Positions 59,816 to 64,000 of a stretch of 64,000 nucleotides of DNA are shown piece after piece. Positions within the stretch are counted from its first letter, which is position 1; every line of letters begins with the position of its first letter. A program made the position numbers and the translations under genes. The notes under the pieces were generated by a model that worked only from the letters and a program-made list of their open reading frames with translations, searched no databases and was not told the DNA's origin. Where the stretch lies: the NCBI GenBank assembly GCA_026707285.1, contig JAPOXD010000016.1, positions 1 through 64,000 on the forward strand. Direction: 5' to 3'. The stretch is from Chloroflexota bacterium. Its GTDB lineage: Bacteria; Chloroflexota; UBA11872.

Positions 59816-60712
59816 TCATCCCACGCGCGCGCGGTTCATGGACGCGGCAAGGGCTTGACGCCCGGCGTGGTACGAGCTGCGCACCAGGGGGCCGGATTCC
59901 ACGTGGACGAACCCCAGTGCTCGGGCCTCCTCGGCGATCTCGACGAACTCGTCCGGGTGATAGAAACGCTGCACCGGCAAGTGCTTGCGCGTCGGCTGGA
60001 GGTATTGCCCCACGGTGAGCAGCTCGCAGCGGTGCTCCACGAGGTCGGCAAGCGTCGCGCGCAGCTCGTCGCGTGTTTCGCCCAGGCCGACCATCACCCC
60101 CGATTTTGTCGCCACGTCCGGCGCCATGTCGGCCGCTCGGCGGATGAGCTCCAACGTGCGCTCGTAGCGCGCCTTGGGCCGCACCCGGGCATAAAGCCGC
60201 GGCACCGTCTCGGTGTTGTGGTTGAGCACCACGGGGCGCGCCGCCATCACCGTCGCCAGAGCGTCCCAGTCGCCCATGAAGTCCGGAATGAGCACCTCGA
60301 CCTGGCACGAAGGACGCACGCGGCGCACCGCGCGAATGCAGTCGGCAAACACGCTCGCGCCGCCGTCGGGCGCGTCGTCCCGATTCACCGACGTGATCAC
60401 GCAGTAGTCGAGCCCCATGCGCTCCACCGCGGCCGCCAGGCGCAGCGGCTCCAATGGGTCGATGGCATCGGGCCGGCCCGAGGTGACGGCACAGAAGCCG
60501 CACGCCCGCGTGCAGGTGTCGCCCAGGATCATGAAGGTGGCGTGGCCGTCGTTCCAGCACTCGCCGATGTTGGGACAGCGAGCCTCTTCGCACACGGTGT
60601 GCAGCGATTGCGTGCGCATCAGCCGCTTCAGGCCGGTAAAGCGGTCGCCGGTCGGCGCGCGGACCTTGAGCCACGCCGGCTTGGGGTATCGGGGCCGGAC
60701 CTCAGTGGCCAT
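59816..60712 (-). CDS. lipA: Lipoyl synthase (radical SAM)
   Basis: This 298-aa protein has both cluster motifs: the auxiliary CEEARCPNIGEC and the radical SAM CTRACGFC. It also has the LNHNTETVPRLY segment and the terminal RSSYHAG whose Ser ligates the auxiliary cluster. It inserts two sulfurs into protein-bound octanoate. ATG 60712 overlaps the lipB end by 11 bp; a start at 60739 is also in frame but adds no conserved residues. Confidence 0.95.
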   Translation of the reverse strand: MATEVRPRYPKPAWLKVRAPTGDRFTGLKRLMRTQSLHTVCEEARCPNIGECWNDGHATFMILGDTCTRACGFCAVTSGRPDAIDPLEPLRLAAAVERMGLDYCVITSVNRDDAPDGGASVFADCIRAVRRVRPSCQVEVLIPDFMGDWDALATVMAARPVVLNHNTETVPRLYARVRPKARYERTLELIRRAADMAPDVATKSGVMVGLGETRDELRATLADLVEHRCELLTVGQYLQPTRKHLPVQRFYHPDEFVEIAEEARALGFVHVESGPLVRSSYHAGRQALAASMNRARVG

Positions 60713-61388
60713 TGGCAAGGGCCTTGTCCGAGGCAACATCCCGCAACGCTACATCGAACGTCTGCGCGAAGGCAGTGATGAACGCCTCCTTGGCCGCCTC
60801 GTGATCGGGTGTGGCCCCACAGTAGCGCTCCACGGACGTGATGCCCCCGTCATGGATGCCGCAGGGCACGATGGCTTCGAAGGCCGTCAGGTCCGGCGCC
60901 AGGTTGAGCGCGATGCCGTGCATGCTCACACCCCCGCGCACGTGCACGCCCAGCGCGGCGATCTTGTCGTTGCCCACCCACACGCCGGGCAGGCTCTTCC
61001 GGGGCGCCGCGGGCACGCCGAGCGCGGCCAGGGTGCTCACCAGCGTCTGCTCCAGACCGCGAACGAAGCTGATCGGATAGATGCCGCGGCGGCGCAGGTC
61101 CAGGATCGGATAGGCCACCAGCTGGCCCGGGCCGTGATAGGTCACGTCGCCGCCGCGTTCCACGTCCACGACCTCGATCCCCTGGGCCGCCAGCCGTTCT
61201 GGCGACGCCAACAGGTTCGCCGGGTCGCTGCGGCGGCCGCAGGTGTACACCGGCGGATGCTCCAGCACGGCCAGGGCCTCCGCCGCCGTGCCCGCGCGCA
61301 CGTCGTCGGCGCGCGCATGCTGCCAGGCCCACGCGTCGCGATAGGCCACCCGGCCCGCTCGGTGCACATCGACGGTGGTCGACACCAT
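60702..61388 (-). CDS. lipB: Octanoyl-(acyl carrier protein):protein N-octanoyltransferase LipB
   Basis: This 228-aa protein has the substrate motif RGGDVTYHGPGQLVAYP, the catalytic Lys in GNDKIAALGVHV and the nucleophilic Cys in PCGIHDGGITS. It moves octanoate to lipoyl domains before LipA acts. ATG 61388 (MVSTTVDV) matches the family N-terminus; a longer frame to 61586 has low-complexity sequence only. It overlaps lipA and lies 79 bp after the radical SAM gene. Confidence 0.94.
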   Translation of the reverse strand: MVSTTVDVHRAGRVAYRDAWAWQHARADDVRAGTAAEALAVLEHPPVYTCGRRSDPANLLASPERLAAQGIEVVDVERGGDVTYHGPGQLVAYPILDLRRRGIYPISFVRGLEQTLVSTLAALGVPAAPRKSLPGVWVGNDKIAALGVHVRGGVSMHGIALNLAPDLTAFEAIVPCGIHDGGITSVERYCGATPDHEAAKEAFITAFAQTFDVALRDVASDKALANGH

Positions 61389-61467: not shown

Positions 61468-62886
61468 CTAGATCCCCGCCAGCTGCGCGAATTGAAGCTC
61501 GGTCGGCTCAGCGCAGCAGAACCAGGCCTCGGTGAGCCTCGGCCGCGCCGCCGCGCGCTCGGCGTTGACGAGGACATCGCGCGCACGTCCGTCGGCGGCC
61601 GCTCCGGCAGCGTCGATCACAGCCGCCCGCACGGCGGAATAGGACGTGGCGATATCCGTGTCCTCGTCGGCCATTTCCGCCACCAGCGCCCCGATCGCCG
61701 CTTGAAGCGCGTCGACCGCCGGATCCGCCGCCCGCCACCTATAGCTGAGTTGCGCCTGGTCGTACGGCCCCAGGTGGCGTTGCATGTCGGGCAACCCGAG
61801 AAGCAGCGATCCCTTCGGCAGCAGCAGCCGGATGCCGTACTGCACCGGGTCGACGTTGCCCACCAGGTCGTGCGCGGCGACGAAATCGAGGATGTCCAGC
61901 ACGTCGGTGAACGTCGTCCACGGCGTGAACGGCAGCCAGGACGGCCGGGTCTCGATGCCGTGGCGGCGCAGCAAGGTGATCGCCTGCTCGGCCTCGGCGG
62001 CTACGTGACCCTTGTCCAGGCGCTCCAGGATTCCGTCATTGAGCGACTCGAACGCCGAGATGACGAACAGGCACCCCGCGTCGGCGAACTCGGGCCACAC
62101 ATGGGCGTGCTCCAGGATGTGCTCGACCTTGGTGGTGCAGTCGAACGTGAGCTCCGGGAACCGCGCCTGCATGGCGCGCACCACCTTGCGCGAGTGGCGC
62201 CAGCCGTTGAGGAAGTCCGGATCGCCGAAGGTGATGTGGCGCGCGCCCGCGTCGACGAGCCGCGCAATGTCGTCCAGCACGGTGTCGGCTCCTACGATGC
62301 GAATGCGGCCGTCGTAGACCACCGGCACCGGACAGTGGCGGCACTTGTGCACGCAGCCGTGACTGGCCTCGACATAGCCCGCCAGCCGCTCTTCACCATC
62401 GACCGCAAGCCGCGCATAGCGGTCGATGGGCGGCAGCAGCTCGCGCGCCGGGGCGTGAAAGTCATGCTTGCCGAGTTGGATGACCTCCGGGGCAACGCTC
62501 AGCGTCCCGTTTGCGCTCGGCAGCGCGTCCACCCAGGCCACGAGCTCTGGCTCGTACTCGCCGGCAAGCGCGCGGTCCATGGGATGGCTCGGGTCCAGCG
62601 CCGGCGCCATCTCGCCGTAAAGGCCGTAGAAGCAAATGGGAACGTCCGGGTGCGTGCGACGCGCCGCCTGCGCGGCGCTCACGGCGATGCGCATGGCCGT
62701 GTGCATCGGAACGGAGAACGCCAGCGCGTCGATGCCGTCCAGCGCATCGGGGTCCCACATCTCGACGGCTAGGTCCAGTGCGCGCACCTCGTGTCCCGCC
62801 GCCTGCAGCGCCGCGGCCGGCGAGGCCGCATGCACGGGCTGGTGCCCGAGCTCGTACGTCGAGACGATCAAAACTCGCATCAACAT
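61468..62886 (-). CDS. Radical SAM protein with C-terminal CCAEP tail
   Basis: This 472-aa protein has an N-terminal alpha/beta domain resembling cobalamin-binding-type Rossmann domains (MRVLIVSTYELGHQPVHAAS) but without an obvious DxHxxG. The radical SAM CxxxCxxC is at Cys178, 182 and 185 (CVHKCRHC). The last 18 residues carry WFCCAEPTELQF (Cys457-Cys458), a form of the CUAEP/CCAEP tail known from a family of radical SAM proteins that may use selenocysteine; here both codons are TGC. The substrate is unknown. ATG 62886 or 62880 overlaps the upstream ATP-grasp stop, so the pair is co-translated. Confidence 0.85.
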   Translation of the reverse strand: MLMRVLIVSTYELGHQPVHAASPAAALQAAGHEVRALDLAVEMWDPDALDGIDALAFSVPMHTAMRIAVSAAQAARRTHPDVPICFYGLYGEMAPALDPSHPMDRALAGEYEPELVAWVDALPSANGTLSVAPEVIQLGKHDFHAPARELLPPIDRYARLAVDGEERLAGYVEASHGCVHKCRHCPVPVVYDGRIRIVGADTVLDDIARLVDAGARHITFGDPDFLNGWRHSRKVVRAMQARFPELTFDCTTKVEHILEHAHVWPEFADAGCLFVISAFESLNDGILERLDKGHVAAEAEQAITLLRRHGIETRPSWLPFTPWTTFTDVLDILDFVAAHDLVGNVDPVQYGIRLLLPKGSLLLGLPDMQRHLGPYDQAQLSYRWRAADPAVDALQAAIGALVAEMADEDTDIATSYSAVRAAVIDAAGAAADGRARDVLVNAERAAARPRLTEAWFCCAEPTELQFAQLAGI

Positions 62887-64000
62887 CCCGCCTCAGGACT
62901 CTCCGTTCCGGGCCGCTCCCGCGGCGCTCGGTCCGGATCGATCTCCACGTCAAGCTTCGCATGCGCGCGCCGGAGCGCCGATTCGACGGCATCCGGCGTC
63001 TCACCCCGCGCAAACATGAATCCGAGGTACCGGTCGCCCTCCGGCAGCGGCTCGACCCAGCCGCCCGGCGCGATGGTGATCTCCAGCCCCACGATGCCGG
63101 GAACATCCAGCGCCGCCTCGCGCCCGCGCACCTCGACCAGCACGCCGGCACGGACAATGGGCAGCATCATCACGCCCGACGCGGCGTGGGCGGTGGTGGT
63201 GTCACGCAGCGGCAGATTCAGCGCGTGCCGCAAGATGAGCGACTCCAGCGACACGCCCAGCCCAAATCGCAGCGATCGCGCGCAGAGGCCGCCGATGGAA
63301 CGCGCGGCGACCTCGATGACCGTCGCCGCGTCGCTGTCCACGCGAATCTCGGCGTGAACCGGTCCCTCGGTGAGACCCAGCCCCGCCACGGCCGCGCTCG
63401 TCACGTCCTCGACCGCACGCTGAGTCTCATCGGGCAGACGTGACGGTGTTATGTAAAGCGTTTCCTCGAAATAAGGGCCGTCGAGGGGGTCGGGCTTGTC
63501 GAAGATGGCAAGCGTGTGCAGCGTCCCGCTTCGCAGGAGGCCCTCCACCGCCACCTCCACGCCCGGTACGAACCGCTCGACCAGCAACGGCGCGGGCCGG
63601 CCGTCATCGGACTCCGGCAGCATCCGTCGAATTCGCGCCGCGGCCGCCGCGGTCTCGGCCTTGGTGTCCGCTCGGATCACGCCGCGGCTGGCTGACAAGG
63701 TCAGGGGTTTGAGCACCACCGGGAAGCCAAGCTCCGCAGCGGCAGCCACCGGGTCCGCATCGCCGTCAACGAGCGTAAACGCCGGCTGCGACACACCGGC
63801 CTGCGCCAACCGCCGGCGCATGGCGGCCTTGTCCCGCGTGAGCGCCGTCGCCGCGGGCGGACTGTGCGCCAGGCCCAAACGCTCCGCCGCGAGCGACGCC
63901 GCCGCGACTCCCGCGTCATCCACCGGCACGATGGCGTTGAGCGGCGCCTCGTCGGCAAACTCGACGATGGCGTCCGCCGCGATCTCCGGACGGTGCAGGG
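62880..64000 (-). CDS. ATP-grasp domain protein, N-terminus beyond the window
   Basis: The frame is open to the right edge, and about 373 residues are visible. The visible N-terminal part (AIVPVDDAGVAAASLAAERL) fits the pre-ATP-grasp domain. Next come TRDKAAMRRRLAQAGV, FPVVLKPLTLSASRGVIRAD for the phosphate/adenine contacts, LVERFVPGVEVAVEGLL and VHAEIRVDSDAATVIEVAAR with the Mg-binding acidic residues and Asn-less variant. A C-terminal domain follows. Such enzymes ligate a carboxylate and an amine or thiol via acyl phosphate. Its stop overlaps the radical SAM start, hinting at a shared pathway. Confidence 0.85.
   Translation of the reverse strand, partial: LHRPEIAADAIVEFADEAPLNAIVPVDDAGVAAASLAAERLGLAHSPPAATALTRDKAAMRRRLAQAGVSQPAFTLVDGDADPVAAAAELGFPVVLKPLTLSASRGVIRADTKAETAAAAARIRRMLPESDDGRPAPLLVERFVPGVEVAVEGLLRSGTLHTLAIFDKPDPLDGPYFEETLYITPSRLPDETQRAVEDVTSAAVAGLGLTEGPVHAEIRVDSDAATVIEVAARSIGGLCARSLRFGLGVSLESLILRHALNLPLRDTTTAHAASGVMMLPIVRAGVLVEVRGREAALDVPGIVGLEITIAPGGWVEPLPEGDRYLGFMFARGETPDAVESALRRAHAKLDVEIDPDRAPRERPGTESPEAGC

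Follow-up and report, generated by a model that had tools for sequence, protein, structure and literature searches.

Background

ArsL, the radical S-adenosylmethionine (SAM) enzyme of arsinothricin biosynthesis, has been reported to transfer a 3-amino-3-carboxypropyl group from SAM onto As(III) (PMC8552651; JACS 2024, cited in PMC12159101). Judged by sequence, ArsL is the nearest characterised relative of a radical SAM protein encoded in the DNA analysed here, a stretch of 64,000 nucleotides (the window) that covers positions 1 to 64,000 of contig JAPOXD010000016.1 of a Chloroflexota bacterium with a 3.2-Mb genome (assembly GCA_026707285.1). A first-pass annotation of the window had noted that this gene adjoins the gene of an ATP-grasp ligase, and had suggested a modification or biosynthesis pathway with a possible link to lipoyl or sulfur chemistry. 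We describe here how these two genes and that of an Nfu-type iron-sulfur (Fe-S) carrier appear to form a three-component module, and how the C-terminus of the carrier follows the presence of the ligase.

The other two components also have described relatives. The L-amino acid ligases (BL00235/3vot, BacD/YwfE, RizA) have the fold and the LAL_C2 domain of the ATP-grasp partner, which is however only ~25% identical to them and differs from them in its joint inheritance with a radical SAM enzyme and with the tail of an Nfu protein. NfuA-type Fe-S carriers share with the module carrier a degenerate A-type domain and a NifU domain with a CxxC motif, whereas the module carrier scores below the NfuA cut-off and has a fixed C-terminal Lys-Lys. 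ATP-dependent ligation at the C-terminus of a protein is known from LysX-LysW, RimK and the PEARL peptides; the module has another ligase subfamily and another carrier, and the parallel is an analogy only.

Results

The radical SAM gene occupies positions 61468 to 62886 on the minus strand and encodes 472 residues, or 470 if translation begins at Met3 (62880), as the homologues indicate. By both score and tail the protein falls in NF040546, the family of CUAEP/CCAEP-tail radical SAM (seleno)proteins (557.8 bits against a cut-off of 500), and the next NCBIfam match is ArsL (NF040542), with 274.3 bits against a cut-off of 450. The Pfam Radical_SAM domain scores 48.6 bits; a B12-binding domain reaches 28.5 bits, under the Pfam cut-off of 32.1, so that the protein is not placed in the B12-dependent class. 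The structure model has a predicted local distance difference test score (pLDDT) of 92.8 overall and ~84–86 in the tail, and AprD4, MgmA, OxsB and TsrM are among the matches to the predicted fold. The CxxxCxxC site at residues 178–185 (62355 to 62332, minus strand), where C178, C182 and C185 would hold the SAM-binding [4Fe-4S] cluster, is kept in all 83 family members aligned and in 6 of 6 ArsL-type proteins. On the presence of both genes and on the position of this motif, our reading agrees with the first-pass annotation. We found no viral copies of the gene, and NF040546 is named nowhere in the literature searched, where its partners and role are likewise undescribed; coverage of papers on selenoprotein neighbourhoods was incomplete.

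The ligase gene lies upstream on the same strand, from 62880 to the window edge at 64000 and on to a likely start at 64151 of the contig, which gives a protein of 423 residues. Its ATP-grasp_4 and LAL_C2 domains score 102.7 and 61.8 bits, both above the Pfam cut-offs, and Pfam finds no Fe-S domain in it. The best match in the PDB is the L-amino acid ligase 3vot (E = 1.7e-31), with 3vmm and 4wd3 also found, and the predicted fold is thus that of an L-amino acid ligase. The stop codon TGA (62882 to 62880) overlaps the start codons of the radical SAM gene (62880 to 62886), by 1 nt (TGATG) from Met3 or by 7 nt from Met1. The overlap, taken earlier as a sign that both proteins are made from one message, is real at this locus and limited to the genus of the window; genomes of the sister genus have a gap of ~40 bp instead. 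Recovery of the sequence to the right of 64000, advised by the earlier reader, supplied the start of the ligase gene and, divergent from it, the Nfu-type gene (plus strand, contig positions 64199–64861, L009:6199-6861), which had been missed because it lies just past the window. The carrier ends in ...NPYFEASKK and scores 104.2 bits against NfuA (TIGR03341; cut-off 269.35), while its NifU domain scores 80.9 bits, above its own cut-off.

The association between these genes was surveyed in 85 loci, 70 of which had enough flanking sequence for adjacency counts, with neighbours identified by codon-model gene calls and tblastn. Most of the surveyed genomes are metagenome-assembled genomes (MAGs), so that absences are soft, and genome-level counts here and below are mutually non-independent. 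In 45 of these 70 the 2.3 kb upstream of the radical SAM gene include a ligase gene, and in 52 an Nfu-type gene lies nearby, usually divergent from the ligase. On the tree of the radical SAM family, ligase adjacency is spread across most of the family and is missing in one clade and some tips. Of 20 genomes checked in which the two genes are not adjacent, 19 hold one ligase orthologue each, at another site, and in at least 13 of these 19 the Nfu gene is still next to it.

The same association is seen in gene content. A draw of 246 Actinomycetota genomes contained the radical SAM gene in 21, the ligase in 26 and both in 20, the ligase being present in 6 of the 225 genomes without the radical SAM gene. 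Among 296 genomes of one actinobacterial class the corresponding counts were 101, 127 and 98, with the ligase in 29 of 195 (p ~2e-47 by Fisher's exact test, relatedness ignored). In a panel of 61 Chloroflexota genomes we found the radical SAM gene in 22, the ligase in 23 and both in 21; the module-type Nfu gene was present in 22, every one a ligase carrier. Genomes of at most 1.1 Mb comprised 14 with both genes, 3 with the ligase only and 25 with neither. Genomes with the radical SAM gene almost always have the ligase as well, whereas a ligase and a Lys-Lys carrier are also seen together where that gene is lacking. In G048 and G056 the ligase and Nfu genes are adjacent, and no family radical SAM gene was found. 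The coupling proposed in the first-pass annotation is thereby borne out, and the view that ligase, Lys-Lys carrier and radical SAM enzyme are inherited together as a three-component module is well supported by gene content and order. Neither of the two findings that the annotation had named as counting against its proposal, a rarity of ATP-grasp genes beside homologues with the tail and a lack of conservation of the tail, was made.

The C-terminus of the carrier follows the ligase closely. Ligase-associated Nfu proteins end in ...NPY[YF]ExxKK, with the terminal KK in 97 of 99 proteins read; the other two end in QK (on a short contig, ligase status unknown) and KQ. By comparison, KK ends none of 46 Nfu proteins from genomes without the ligase, many of which end in His. 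Near-identical Nfu proteins of small genomes end in ...NPYFESSKK where the ligase is present and in ...NPYFESSSHSH or ...NPYFASH where it is absent. A proxy based on hidden Markov model (HMM) ends, applied to 150 genomes, gave 104 and 44 concordant cases and two exceptions, both at contig edges: in one the ligase is a fragment cut by the contig end, and in the other the contig ends within the tail. On an Nfu tree built without the tail residues, we counted about nine changes in ligase presence, and seven of the contrasts lie on supported branches; ligase and KK change together in six of these and in opposite directions in none (p = 0.031 by sign test). Second Nfu copies inside ligase genomes (G126, G137) lack KK, and the KK end is retained where no radical SAM gene was found (L192, L194, L196, L197, L198). 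In nearly all copies the tail stops exactly at the second Lys, which suggests that a free C-terminus matters. Separately, His-rich tails (SH, AHSH) often stand in place of Lys-Lys in genomes without the ligase (L207–L213, L218–L238).

The second conserved terminus is that of the radical SAM protein. Its tail, PRLTEAWFCCAEP, comprises residues 449–461 (61504 to 61542, minus strand) and follows a variable linker. WFCCAEP, described earlier as the end of the protein, is present at residues 455–461 (61524 to 61504; CCAEP at 457–461) and is followed by 11 further residues before the C-terminus. The earlier impression that it is conserved holds: E453, W455, F456, C457, C458, E460 and P461 are invariant in 41 diverse aligned sequences, and both Cys positions are kept as Cys or selenocysteine (Sec) in 83 of 83 family members. 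A tail could be read in 79 of 80 species loci, in a few as WFCCSEP, a count that is biased because the loci were fetched by two patterns, one being the tail itself and the other N-terminal; loci with UGA in the tail cannot match the former and came through the latter. The conservation is far beyond chance.

The presence of selenocysteine in related proteins, also anticipated in the first-pass annotation, is confirmed by a hairpin and by an in-frame UGA for the second tail Cys in 24 loci. A 7-bp hairpin of the selenocysteine insertion sequence (SECIS) type stands at a fixed distance after the UGA and forms 157 of 168 possible pairs over the 24 loci, which none of 5000 shuffles equalled; in relatives that encode Cys, just 2.66 of the 7 pairs form. 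SelB scores above its cut-off in most of the UGA genomes, and the genome of the window has SelB but uses Cys in the tail. By the in-frame UGA and the covarying hairpin, the UGA-bearing relatives count as selenoproteins, and the exchange of Sec and Cys argues that this residue does chemistry. In Thermomicrobium roseum (L141:8935-10371) the protein is annotated to end at WFC, but the next codon is UGA followed by AEP, so that the annotation has cut a selenoprotein short. The radical SAM tail of G020 also has UGA, and in that genome a transposase-like gene (L058:7433-8731) lies between the ligase and radical SAM genes.

Comparison with ArsL shows ~32% identity over most of the length, the same CxxxCxxC motif, and an alignment of the vicinal CC of the tail with RCCLKC of ArsL. 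Where ArsL has its third tail Cys, the CCAEP family has Pro and therefore lacks the three-Cys pattern; the family tail is FCCAEP plus 11 residues, no ars operon surrounds the gene, and an Nfu gene is its partner. The conserved Cys pair had been read as a redox-active dithiol or selenothiol; since it aligns with RCCLKC, a redox disulfide is no more likely a role for it than the binding of a soft element. Cys272 was considered as a third thiol ligand in place of the missing Cys. It is 83% conserved and absent from ArsL-type proteins, and we gave it no weight because GC at this place is common across the wider radical SAM family. Compared by sequence, the solved structures included no ArsL entry that stood out. 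Five of six ArsL-type plasmid operons read (from Priestia, Pantoea, Alicyclobacillus and Klebsiella) contain an ATP-grasp gene, whose product is a distant homologue of the module ligase (~23% identical, tested for Priestia and Pantoea); ars or arsinothricin genes are present in the operons read. The plasmid-borne RCCLKC operons L143, L144, L145, L146 and L147 have an ATP-grasp gene, often with MFS, ArsM and GTP-binding genes, and may represent arsinothricin-peptide pathways.

Beyond the module, lipB (60702 to 61388) and lipA (59816 to 60739) follow on the minus strand as local neighbours outside the conserved set. The first-pass annotation had placed the pair immediately downstream, which is correct for this locus, where lipB most likely starts at 61388, ~80 bp past the radical SAM stop; it is not translationally coupled. 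In the genus of the window and its sister genus the module genes stand beside lipB, lipA and pyruvate dehydrogenase genes, and in one congener an insert of ~3.5 kb separates lipB. Neighbours of the lipA, lipB and aceF type are found in Chloroflexota only, and none of the 68 loci from other groups has lipA or lipB beside the radical SAM gene, so that a link to lipoyl chemistry does not stand as a general one. In a separate actinobacterial lineage (L117, L118, L119, L128, L132, L133, L138), aceE, for pyruvate dehydrogenase E1, lies close upstream of the radical SAM gene. A DUF169 (COG2043) gene recurs nearby in 26 of the 85 loci (e.g., L106:6479-7207), and in loci of the Solirubrobacterales type the radical SAM gene has a SaoD/DsrE-family neighbour (L122:8415-8780; also L064, L065, L066, L070). 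Sao proteins are linked to organometal chemistry. At L060, in G052, the radical SAM gene has an insert of ~40–50 residues, the ligase gene is convergent, and a formyltransferase-like gene is divergent to it.

Discussion

The three-gene module suggests a so far unstudied pathway, either of protein modification or of biosynthesis. We tentatively propose, as a possibility somewhat short of probable, that the ligase acts on the C-terminal lysines of the carrier and the radical SAM enzyme acts with it or after it. The inner pair consists of ligase and Lys-Lys carrier; the radical SAM gene nearly requires both, and not the reverse, and an order in which the ligase works on the C-terminus and the radical enzyme alongside or afterwards is therefore the easiest to understand. 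The ATP-grasp enzyme would make an acyl-phosphate and, through a peptide or isopeptide bond, attach an amino acid to the C-terminal lysine or lysines. During or after this ligation, the radical SAM enzyme would probably make a 3-amino-3-carboxypropyl radical from SAM, by analogy with its relative ArsL, and the vicinal Cys-Cys or Cys-Sec tail would keep an acceptor or intermediate of soft (thiophilic) character close to the cluster. The product may stay on the carrier or be released. The boldest version, a hitherto undescribed post-translational system in which the ligase conjugates an amino acid to the Nfu C-terminal dilysine and an ArsL-like radical SAM (seleno)enzyme remodels the conjugate while its tail holds a soft element, is more doubtful.

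Several observations weigh against a ligase that acts on the carrier. Among characterised ATP-grasp enzymes, the closest ones use free amino acids as substrates and not the C-termini of proteins, and Lys-Lys might be there as a docking signal and not as a substrate. G052 has the ligase and radical SAM genes with no detectable module-type Nfu, the ArsL-type plasmid operons have an ATP-grasp gene with no Nfu gene annotated alongside, and the tree contrasts between tail and ligase number just six or seven. No radical SAM gene was found in 29 of the 127 ligase genomes of the class, a share of which is explained by MAG incompleteness, and its role may therefore be optional. The resemblance of the ATP-grasp fold to dipeptide-forming L-amino acid ligases, and the recurrence of a ligase and an ArsL-like enzyme as a pair without Nfu in 5 of 6 plasmid operons, favour a small-molecule pathway, in which the radical SAM enzyme would build a non-protein amino acid by adding the 3-amino-3-carboxypropyl group to a soft acceptor, the ligase would couple it to a further amino acid in a di- or tripeptide, and Nfu would only supply or repair Fe-S clusters; bialaphos, which contains phosphinothricin, offers a parallel. 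Such a pathway leaves unexplained why the Nfu C-terminus tracks the ligase and why ligase and Lys-Lys Nfu are found where the radical SAM gene is absent. The low identity between the two ATP-grasp groups and the finding of no exporter gene among the commonest conserved neighbours also speak against it, and we regard it as unlikely.

Docking would have the Nfu protein bind the ATP-grasp and/or radical SAM enzyme through Lys-Lys and, itself unmodified, deliver clusters or hold the complex. Nfu proteins do serve radical SAM enzymes, as NFU1 serves lipoyl synthase (PMC9585516), and docking typically involves short, charged motifs at a terminus. However, the tail follows the ligase, in which no Fe-S domain was found by Pfam, and not the radical SAM enzyme, and its exact end at the second Lys fits a need for a free C-terminus; docking without modification seems rather unlikely. 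Synthesis of an organoarsenical, by an ArsL variant specific for arsenic whose product, an amino acid like hydroxyarsinothricin, the ligase would conjugate, draws on the kinship with ArsL and on the shared vicinal Cys pair. It is very unlikely in view of the Pro at the third Cys position and of the 85 loci, in which one ArsR-like match was found and no homologue of arsC, arsB/ACR3, arsQ, arsM, arsN1 or aquaporin, in contrast to the ArsL-type operons. The faintest prospect is that the module maintains lipoyl or pyruvate dehydrogenase function, by supporting LipA or protecting lipoylated complexes: the gene order in the genus of the window and its sister genus and the aceE genes of the actinobacterial lineage suggest it, whereas the lack of lipA or lipB in loci outside Chloroflexota and the insert before lipB in one congener argue the opposite.

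Conclusions

The module is carried by hundreds of mostly uncultured Actinomycetota and Chloroflexota, including streamlined genomes of ~1 Mb, and its presence in the latter implies that it is probably no optional luxury. The Lys-Lys tail provides a clear, testable prediction. If the ligase does modify the carrier, the outcome would be a covalent modification new to iron-sulfur proteins, and the ArsL branch of radical SAM enzymes would gain a new role.
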